From Novosphingobium sp. (lineage in GTDB: Bacteria; Pseudomonadota; Alphaproteobacteria; Sphingomonadales; Sphingomonadaceae), in NCBI GenBank assembly GCA_031285165.1, contig JAITWR010000102.1:1-37101 (forward strand): a DNA stretch of 37,101 nucleotides, given 5' to 3'. The notes under the pieces were generated by a model, which searched no databases, had not been told where the DNA came from, and saw nothing but the letters and a program-made list of their open reading frames with translations. This document shows, piece after piece, positions 6,411-31,740 of this stretch (the stretch's first letter is position 1; each line of letters opens with the position of its first letter). A program made the translations under genes and the position numbers.

Positions 6411-6437
6411 CCGGCCATTTGTTTGAGGGAGATCCCA

Positions 6438-30468: not shown

Positions 30469-30786
30469 ATGAAGAAGTTTGCCGCTCTCGCCGCTGTGGC
30501 GACCCTTGCCGTTTTCTCCATCCCGGCGGCTTTCGCCGCTGAATCGTCGCAGACGGTTCGCGCCGCTACCGAGGCAGCTTCGGGCAGCGTTGCCGTCAAC
30601 GCCGGCAAGATGCTCTATGCCGGCAACGGTCAGCGCATCGCCCCGATCTACCGTGTCAGCTCGGAAGGCAATCCGCAGGTCATCCTGAACGGCAAGCTCG
30701 TCACCGTGCCGGCTTCGACGCTGTCGGATGTCGACGGCAAGGTCACGACCTCGCTGACCAAGCAGGAACTCGGCCGCGCCCAGTAA
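30469..30786 (+). CDS. Small exported protein of unknown function
   Basis: A 105-aa protein with a signal peptide 'MKKFAALAAVATLAVFSIPAAFAA', cleaved probably after AFA, and a mature part of about 80 residues. The mature part has 'GKMLYAGNGQRIAPIYRVSSEG', 'PQVILNGKLVTVPASTLS' and a C-terminal 'VTTSLTKQELGRAQ'. The middle resembles the PRC-barrel-like small secreted proteins common in sphingomonads, whose role is unknown. GGAGA 7-8 bp before the ATG is the ribosome site. It is monocistronic: AT-rich promoter region upstream and a strong terminator 23 bp after the stop, a layout typical of well-expressed genes. Confidence 0.88.
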   Translation: MKKFAALAAVATLAVFSIPAAFAAESSQTVRAATEAASGSVAVNAGKMLYAGNGQRIAPIYRVSSEGNPQVILNGKLVTVPASTLSDVDGKVTTSLTKQELGRAQ

Positions 30787-30810
30787 GCGCTGGCTGAATA
30801 CCAGGCATGA

Positions 30811-30841
30811 AAAAAGGGTGGTGCATTGCGCCGCCCTTTTT
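30811..30841 (+). terminator. Rho-independent terminator (bidirectional form)
   Basis: AAAAAGGGTGG, a 9-nt loop and CCGCCCTTTTT form an 11-bp stem with one G-T pair. Runs of A and T at the two ends allow termination from either strand. It directly follows the small exported protein gene. Confidence 0.85.
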
Positions 30842-30849
30842 GTTTGTCC

Positions 30850-31016
30850 GGCGGAACCGCTTCGTTCCCTTCCTCGTCACCCTGAACTTGTTTCAGGGTC
30901 CATCGGGCAGTTTTGTCCCTGTGGGCGCGGTGTCGGCGGAGGGATGGACCCTGAAACAAGTTCTGGGTGACGGGTGTGGGATGATGAGACAGGTGTGGGG
31001 CGAGTGGTGCCGAATA
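30850..31016. repeat. Dispersed intergenic repeat, copy 2 (inverted double element)
   Basis: Two 30-bp arms, CGTCACCCTGAACTTGTTTCAGGGTCCATC (30875-30904) and its reverse complement with one mismatch (30943-30972), are separated by 38 bp. The left flank 'GCGGAACCGCTTCG' and right flank 'GGGGCGAGTGGTGCCG' match the ends of the element at 2610-2724, which has only one inner unit. It lies between convergent genes. Confidence 0.8.
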
Positions 31017-31029
31017 TCCGCGTCCTGCC

Positions 31030-31740
31030 CTAGCTGACGGTTTCCCTGTGTCCGCTGTCGAAGGGTTCGGCCAGAAGCGCAACGAGCCGCCGGGCGACCG
31101 CTTCGGGCGGCTTTAGCGAAGCGGGATCTTCGCCCGGATAGGCGCGTGCGCGCATCGCCGTGCGGGTGGCGCCGGGATTGACGATGGCGACGCGCAGCTT
31201 CGAGATGTTCCGCGTTTCCTGCGCATAGCAGTCGAGCAGGGTTTCGAACGCCGCCTTGGTTGCGCCATAGGCACCCCAATAGGCGCGCGGCTTCATCCCG
31301 ACCGAGCTGCTCAGTCCCACTACGCGAGGGTTCTCGCTGCGCCGCAGCATGGGGTCGAAATTGGCGATCAGCGCCTGGGTGGCGAGTACGTTGACTGTCA
31401 GCGCCTTGTTGAAGGCGCCCTGATCGATATCGGCGACCGAGGAAAGCTGCGGCAGGATCGCGGCGTTGATCACCAGCATGTCGAGTGCCTGCCAGCGCTG
31501 CGAGATGGCGGCGGCCAGCCGGGCGATGCCGTCGGGCTCGGACAGGTCGACGGGCGCGATCGTGGCCTTGCCGCCGGCCTGGAATATCCGTTCCTCGACC
31601 TGTTCGAGCCCTTTGGCGGTGCGCGCGGTCAGCACGACATGCGCGCCGGCTGCGGCCAGCGCCTCGGCGGTCGCTGCGCCGATGCCGCGGCTGGCGCCGG
31701 TGACGAGCGCCAACTGGCCGGAGAAAGGCCCTTCTACCAT
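31030..31740 (-). CDS. SDR family oxidoreductase
   Basis: A 236-aa short-chain dehydrogenase: 'LVTGASRGIGAATAEAL' at residues 12-28, 'MLVINAAILPQ' near 88, 'VVGLSSSVGMK' near 138, and the catalytic 'YGATKAAFETLL' near 158. It starts at ATG 31740 after GGGAG. It is 13 bp downstream of purF on the same strand and probably cotranscribed with it, although SDR function is not part of purine synthesis. Substrate unknown. Confidence 0.93.
   Translation of the reverse strand: MVEGPFSGQLALVTGASRGIGAATAEALAAAGAHVVLTARTAKGLEQVEERIFQAGGKATIAPVDLSEPDGIARLAAAISQRWQALDMLVINAAILPQLSSVADIDQGAFNKALTVNVLATQALIANFDPMLRRSENPRVVGLSSSVGMKPRAYWGAYGATKAAFETLLDCYAQETRNISKLRVAIVNPGATRTAMRARAYPGEDPASLKPPEAVARRLVALLAEPFDSGHRETVS

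Follow-up and report, generated by a model that had tools for sequence, protein, structure and literature searches.

Small GIY-YIG nuclease genes associated with CGTC-2 palindromes, the repeat family of a Novosphingobium intergenic palindrome pair

Introduction

Between the 3′ ends of two convergent genes of Novosphingobium sp. lies an inverted pair of palindromes, and its presence raises the question of which repeat family it belongs to and which enzyme spreads that family. In many alphaproteobacteria, and outside this class too, intergenic DNA is full of CGTC-type palindromes. The CGTC-2 family is known in N. aromaticivorans, where it forms homodimers (Di Nocera et al. 2013, PMC3733652). The same study found no transposase for CGTC REPs and no CGTC-flanked RAYT, and proposed that the CGTC enzyme died out or was replaced. 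We analysed the palindrome pair in its window, that is, the whole stretch of 37,101 nucleotides (contig JAITWR010000102.1 of assembly GCA_031285165.1), in the remainder of the genome and in related and distant genomes.

Results

Structure of the palindrome pair

The pair consists of a 30-bp left arm (30875-30904, + strand) and a 30-bp right arm (30943-30972, − strand), the latter an inverted copy with one mismatch in the stem, separated by 38 bp as the earlier note had described. A repeat search extended the arms to 39 nt at 87% complementarity. The left arm is composed of a CGTC head, the stem-loop ACCCTGAA-CTTGT-TTCAGGGT and a CCAT tail, and a single arm folds by itself into an 8-bp stem with a 5-nt loop. 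The spacer (30905-30942) is of the family-typical form CGGGCRGTTTT...GGCGGAGGG and recurs, in both orientations, in 36 pairs. The two arms together form a single long hairpin (−72.5 kcal/mol as RNA, z −11.3; z −11.4 against shuffles for the DNA fold). The 19-nt core CCCTGAACTTGTTTCAGGG is found three times in the window at ≤3 mismatches, versus none in 100 dinucleotide shuffles.

Outside the arms, a linker and a worn form of the outer end ..GGATAATCGGAACCGCTTCG.. occupy the left side (30850-30874, + strand); the genome holds 52 such ends at ≤2 mismatches (control, 0), many of them flanking arm pairs. The right side (30973-31019, − strand) is made of a linker with TGACGGGTGTGGG units and a worn form of the outer end ATATCGGCACCACTCGCCCCGC, with 33 such ends in the genome at ≤2 mismatches (control, 1). 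A second copy, in single form (CGTCACCCTGAACTTGTTTCAGGGGGACG), lies at 2641-2668 on the − strand, and the two copies share, as had been claimed, the ends ..CGGAACCGCTTCG.. and ..GGCACCACTC.., both of which are degenerate in the window.

Both copies are also placed between convergent gene ends. The pair is preceded by a gene for a 105-aa protein without Pfam match (30469-30786, + strand) and an intrinsic-terminator-like hairpin (30810-30843, + strand; −24 kcal/mol, z −4.6) followed by a T run, and is followed by a short-chain dehydrogenase gene with its 3′ end at 31030 (31030-31740, − strand; PF00106, 9e-42). The single copy lies between another short-chain dehydrogenase gene, ending at 2578 (+ strand), and an M14 carboxypeptidase gene, ending at 2732 (− strand). 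Searching the feature against Rfam returned chance miRNA matches only, far below gathering scores.

The repeat family in the Novosphingobium genome

Across the genome (2.59 Mb in 208 contigs, 84% complete), 147 arms were detected at ≤2 mismatches, against 0 for a reversed-pattern control; the likeness is thus not confined to the two window copies, as a local duplication would have left it. Sorting of 70 loci, which the earlier note had proposed, gave 36 close pairs and 32 singles. All 36 close pairs run + then −, with a spacing of 67-69 nt in 35 of them, and the genome-wide listing of arms contains no close pair in the − then + order. A CGTCA head precedes the core in 98 of 104 arms, and a TCCAT tail closes 66 of 72 dimer arm ends. 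Among the singles, thirteen have a TGAC end and the sequence GTCACCCTGAACTTGTTTCAGGGTGAC, the product expected of a pair that has lost everything from one to the other of its two TTCAGGGT (or ACCCTGAA) direct repeats. These singles look like collapsed pairs, a resemblance that the earlier note had passed over, and such a deletion would be the route to them.

The arms are followed outwards by degenerate linkers, and two ends recur there, ..GGATAATCGGAACCGCTTCG.. (52 times) and ..ATATCGGCACCACTCGCC.. (33 times), often one per side, so that the description as a modular dispersed repeat with single and inverted double forms is right. Spacer orientation relative to the outer ends is mixed (7+6 versus 5+3), which makes a fixed composite formed in one step unlikely; the composite may have arisen by inversion or by independent insertion, both of which fit. 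Arm-free outer ends also occur (for example L142, with CGTC|TGACG), and the few clean cases are too few to prove nesting. In three pair variants (L009, L121 and L126) the right arm is split by ∼21 nt, GAGCCGCAGGCCAGCGCAGCTA, and extra sequence similar to theirs is found in other worn copies (L132 and L133). A separate AGAGCATCGTGCGCAAAAGTGGGAACCG repeat (L031-L033, at the ends of G000:C198 and C55) is similar to one of the outer ends of the composite in the window, and these contig ends also carry IS200-type TnpA genes that are truncated or frameshifted.

According to a simple gene caller, the 49 classifiable sites are convergent in 25 cases, codirectional in 19, divergent in 4 and inside a gene in 1. 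This bias, together with the very stable hairpin, would suit repeats that are retained because they serve the host at gene ends, as terminator, mRNA stabiliser or supercoiling site, in which case the GIY-YIG genes described below would only tolerate the hairpins. The same placement is, however, expected of any insertion forced to avoid promoters, and a host function leaves unexplained the two-sided framing of these genes at fixed distances, the matching of enzyme clades to palindromes and the shared inner ends. We therefore regard it as a highly improbable explanation of the association, although it can hold in addition to a role of the nuclease.

Relation to known repeat families

Taken by itself, the pair in the window belongs to a known repeat family and is unremarkable within it. 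Its arms have in common with CGTC-2 REPs (PMC3733652) the CGTC head, an 8-bp stem, a 5-nt loop and the CCA tail, and the fold of ACCCTGAA-CTTGT-TTCAGGGT shows the stem starting with an A-T pair. They also share the head-to-head pairing, the conserved spacer, the intergenic position downstream of genes (convergent or codirectional in 44 of the 49 classifiable sites) and the lack of a RAYT. Two differences stand out: the published family has no dedicated transposase, whereas here a GIY-YIG gene is found inside arm pairs; and the Novosphingobium copies are part of a larger composite whose inverted ends are imperfect. REP dimers inside larger palindromes have been described in other species (PMC3733652).

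The earlier comparison with BIMEs stands as a loose analogy. Like the BIMEs of E. coli, the repeats form a mosaic of alternating palindromes at gene ends, next to a terminator-like hairpin in the case of the window pair, but BIMEs are built of GTAG REPs with a RAYT and their sequence is unrelated to that of these arms, which are of the CGTC-2 type and placed head-to-head. The dRS3 repeats of Neisseria (CGTC-1 in Di Nocera 2013) belong to the same superfamily; their stem sequence differs and in Neisseria they form clustered mosaics. MITEs are marked by terminal inverted repeats and a target-site duplication; here the arms are inverted, and no duplication was recognisable in two comparisons of occupied and empty sites.

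The REPIN/RAYT systems of Pseudomonas and enterobacteria (PMC3116915, PMC2817692) resemble this family in having many short inverted palindrome pairs and few enzyme genes, framed by the same palindromes. They differ in combining an HUH tyrosine transposase with a GTAG head, instead of a GIY-YIG nuclease with a CGTC head. The REPIN-like layout (PMC3116915) might suggest that the pairs are spread by a RAYT-type tyrosine transposase and that the GIY-YIG link is a side effect, a reading that we consider very improbable given the CGTC head in place of GTAG and the failure of Di Nocera 2013 (PMC3733652), too, to find a CGTC-flanked RAYT. Framing was seen at 1 of 18 RAYT loci, by unrelated sequence. 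As a mobiliser, RAYT was searched for directly and rejected: the family NF047646 has no match in the genome, which at 84% completeness could be missing the gene, and the RAYT loci of relatives have no copy of the repeat nearby. The PF01797 matches in the genome are truncated IS200-type TnpA fragments and not RAYT.

GIY-YIG genes framed by arm pairs

Some arm pairs of related genomes are set 374 nt apart and enclose the coding sequence of a small GIY-YIG protein. The Novosphingobium genome itself has such a gene on contig C100 (6530-6751), between facing arms at 6424 and 6866. This framing of a nuclease gene by the arms had escaped the earlier note.

As a second approach, GIY-YIG genes were sought by protein, independently of the repeat. 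A locus was scored as framed when an inverted match with a score of ≥14 was found between the 150 nt preceding the domain and the 200 nt following it, and windows shifted 550 nt outwards served as controls. Among small GIY-YIG domains, nearly all from the host's order, 58 of 75 were framed, versus 0 of 74 shifted windows; random intervals within the same loci gave 0 of 1,080. In a set of named genomes from several phyla, framing was found at 46 of 80 loci, versus 1 of 71 shifted windows (1 of 145 for the order and the named set pooled). The framed cases include Novosphingobium, Sphingomonas, Erythrobacter, Dyella, Rhodanobacter, Pseudoxanthomonas, Sulfuritalea, Nitrosomonadales, Tistlia, Planctomycetota and others. 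Sampling the best Pfam matches across the phylum gave 8 framed genes out of 30, versus 0 of 28 shifted windows; the remaining 22 small GIY-YIG genes were unframed, and not all GIY-YIG genes therefore belong to this association. A null made of mismatched flanks, taken from different genomes, reached the score of ≥14 in 9% of cases; being inflated by shared palindromes, it was replaced as a control by the shifted and random windows.

The geometry of the framed loci is regular. Arms of the window's type stand at fixed distances from the domain, ∼55 nt upstream and ∼48 nt downstream, and those of the CCCGCG type mostly at 41-50 and 15-37 nt, respectively. Just inside the arm, nuclease units read TCCA-tcgtgCCGCa. 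One inner end of each of the 36 short pairs of the Novosphingobium genome fits this motif better than 95% of shuffles, as is also the case in 19 of 21 pairs from relatives. The shared inner ends suggest that one sequence serves for recognition in both, and that the short pairs are related to the unit but have no gene; this is the best reading of the window copy as well.

Some GIY-YIG loci have peculiarities of their own. A second small GIY-YIG gene of the Novosphingobium genome (L148, G000:C79:3411-3629) is framed by a different palindrome, of the CCCCCGCGAAAGCGGGGG type. At another locus (L165, G081:C5:159053-159852) the gene is in tandem, two copies with identical proteins 578 bp apart. At four loci (L149, L172, L195 and L209) the open frame extends upstream into the arm, with an ATG inside CATGCTGAAC, and the annotated starts may therefore be misplaced, or translation may reach into the arm.

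Nuclease clades and palindrome types

The framing palindromes were sorted by simple patterns into seven types and mapped onto a tree of 146 GIY-YIG proteins, built from short alignment rows of 108 columns. Palindrome type changes 25 times on this tree, versus 66-80 times in 200 shuffles. Several GIY-YIG genes with different palindromes are often present in the same genome, and for this reason types were also shuffled within genomes: 14 changes were observed, and none of 500 shuffles gave fewer than 25. A group of 36 proteins, including that of the Novosphingobium genome, is framed only by the arm type of the window.

The arms are also distributed according to the nuclease, in per-genome counts made by hand from tables. 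Further exact copies of the window's arm type (CTGAACTTGTTTCAG arms) are present in 10 of 11 genomes with a matching framed nuclease, versus 10 of 50 without one (Fisher 2e-5, kinship ignored), and those of the ATTCCCGCGAANGCGGGAAT arm in 8 of 8 matching genomes, versus 5 of 53 (Fisher 4e-7, kinship likewise ignored).

Other common palindromes (CTGAGCTTGTCGAAG, TCGAGCGAAGTCGA, TTGCGAG..GCAA and CCCGTGCTTGACACGGG) frame further GIY-YIG clades in the same way, and the link is therefore wider than the CTGAAC-type arms (loci with other palindrome types: L153, L155, L158, L173-L176, L187, L201, L202, L204, L213, L214, L215, L217 and L218). A gonococcal GIY-YIG gene (L300, Neisseria gonorrhoeae NZ_CP119140.1, 1882281-1882538), in a record without gene annotation at that place, is framed by dRS3-type ATTCCCGC..GCGGGAAT arms.

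Occupied, single-palindrome and empty sites

Comparison of related replicons revealed sites with and without the unit. Azospirillum lipoferum 4B has a unit with arms on both sides between sufB and sufC, and this site is without the unit in A. ramasamyi, A. oryzae and strain B510. On Sphingobium megaplasmids, the gap between fnrL and a response regulator gene contains CGTCACCCCGGGCTTGACCCGGGGTCCC - GIY-YIG - GGGACCCCGGGTCAAGCCCGGGGTGACG in the aligned locus L305, with L318 and L316 near-identical. At the same gap, TomTYG74 and TomTYG64 have only a single palindrome (such as CCGTCACCCCGGGTCAAGCCCGGGGTGACGG), which is the exact collapsed form in TomTYG64 and carries changes in TomTYG74, and TomTYG72 and TomTYG65 are without this palindrome. 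The Sphingobium plasmid records thus present the full unit, the single palindrome and the empty site as alternative states of one locus. At both Azospirillum and Sphingobium sites the differences may reflect gain as well as loss.

These states bear on the strongest rival explanation, namely that the GIY-YIG gene is a homing-type parasite that invades existing arm pairs, the pairs themselves being spread by something else. In favour of this reading, homing is driven by GIY-YIG domains in other settings, the gene occupies exactly the place of the spacer in a head-to-head pair, and the Sphingobium sites display both palindrome-only and gene-bearing states. On the other hand, many gene-less pairs are found beside one or two gene units per genome, so that invasion of pairs would have to be very inefficient, and the match of clade to palindrome persists within genomes. 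Invasion by a homing gene is, on balance, unlikely.

The nuclease protein

The GIY-YIG protein of the Novosphingobium genome (L149:1411-1743, − strand) is intact (PF01541, 3e-13). An alignment of 24 small GIY-YIG proteins shows no variation at residues Y10, Y21, R31, E68 and N87, and we take these Tyr, Tyr, Arg, Glu and Asn positions to be the expected GIY-YIG active site, with catalytic roles. In a structure model of mean pLDDT 88, the nearest folds, with modest scores, were UPF0213-type single-domain GIY-YIG proteins, Slx1 and the UvrC nuclease domain (nearest solved structures 1zg2, 6seh and 1yd6; the best fold match reached only E 0.003). No link of UPF0213, Slx1 or UvrC to repeats was found in the literature searched, and the protein had no PADLOC match and no NCBIfam match above the curated cut-off. 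Slx1 cuts branched DNA, an activity that, by analogy, would fit a hairpin or cruciform as the substrate of this nuclease.

Discussion

As an association, the link of GIY-YIG genes to the CGTC-2 family is well supported; a role of the nuclease as mobiliser is what it leads us to infer, in testable form. We think it probable that the GIY-YIG nuclease is the dedicated enzyme of window-type palindromes, which would recognise and cut the arms and drive the copying or movement of units and pairs. The full unit of the family would be arm - GIY-YIG nuclease gene - arm, of which the Novosphingobium genome holds one with an intact nuclease (contig C100), the other ∼150 arms being presumably gene-less pairs or singles derived from pair collapse. 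The window pair represents head-to-head CGTC-2 REP palindromes inside what is probably an older composite repeat, and the nuclease would play for CGTC palindromes the role that RAYT plays for GTAG REPs.

Recognition would most likely involve the inner TCCATcgtgCCGC motif together with the arms, the latter extruded into hairpins or cruciforms. The nuclease would then cut its own palindrome, perhaps in the extruded form, and repair or some joining step would copy or move the DNA bounded by the arms. Short gene-less pairs would be mobilised in trans, and a pair could collapse to a single palindrome. Copying of the nuclease unit itself would have to be rare, because there are few such units per genome. 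This low number speaks against a simple mechanism, as do the type-A arms found in 10 of 50 genomes without a matching framed nuclease and the failure to recognise a target duplication at the compared sites.

A broader proposal, to which we give an even chance, is that there exists a distinct class of minimal bacterial mobile elements, built as arm - nuclease - arm and driven by single-domain GIY-YIG nucleases, which also move gene-less pairs in trans. This class would underlie CGTC REPs and many other common dispersed palindromes (CTGAGCTTGTCGAAG, TTGCGAG..GCAA and CCCGTGCTTGACACGGG types), each with its own nuclease clade. The question left by PMC3733652, what spreads CGTC palindromes, becomes directly testable in vitro and in laboratory strains with this nuclease as a specific candidate enzyme, which is widely conserved and corresponds to palindrome families clade by clade. 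The candidate would also supply a function for the many proteins whose only annotation is 'GIY-YIG nuclease family protein'.

As far as checked, the link between GIY-YIG and CGTC-2 is unreported. Among the titles and abstracts listed we found no paper linking GIY-YIG with REP, RAYT, REPIN, dRS3, BIME or MITE in bacteria; preprints and subscription papers lay outside this search, and a prior report is therefore possible. One paper (PMC9465073) names GIY-YIG, RAYT and BIME merely as separate items, and the arm sequence as a literature query gave no match. Among the more distant loci, a GIY-YIG gene of Planktothrix agardhii p1 (L308) lies between the gene of a type IIL restriction enzyme and DISARM drmA, with GTCATTCTGAG..CGAAGAATCTC repeats around it.
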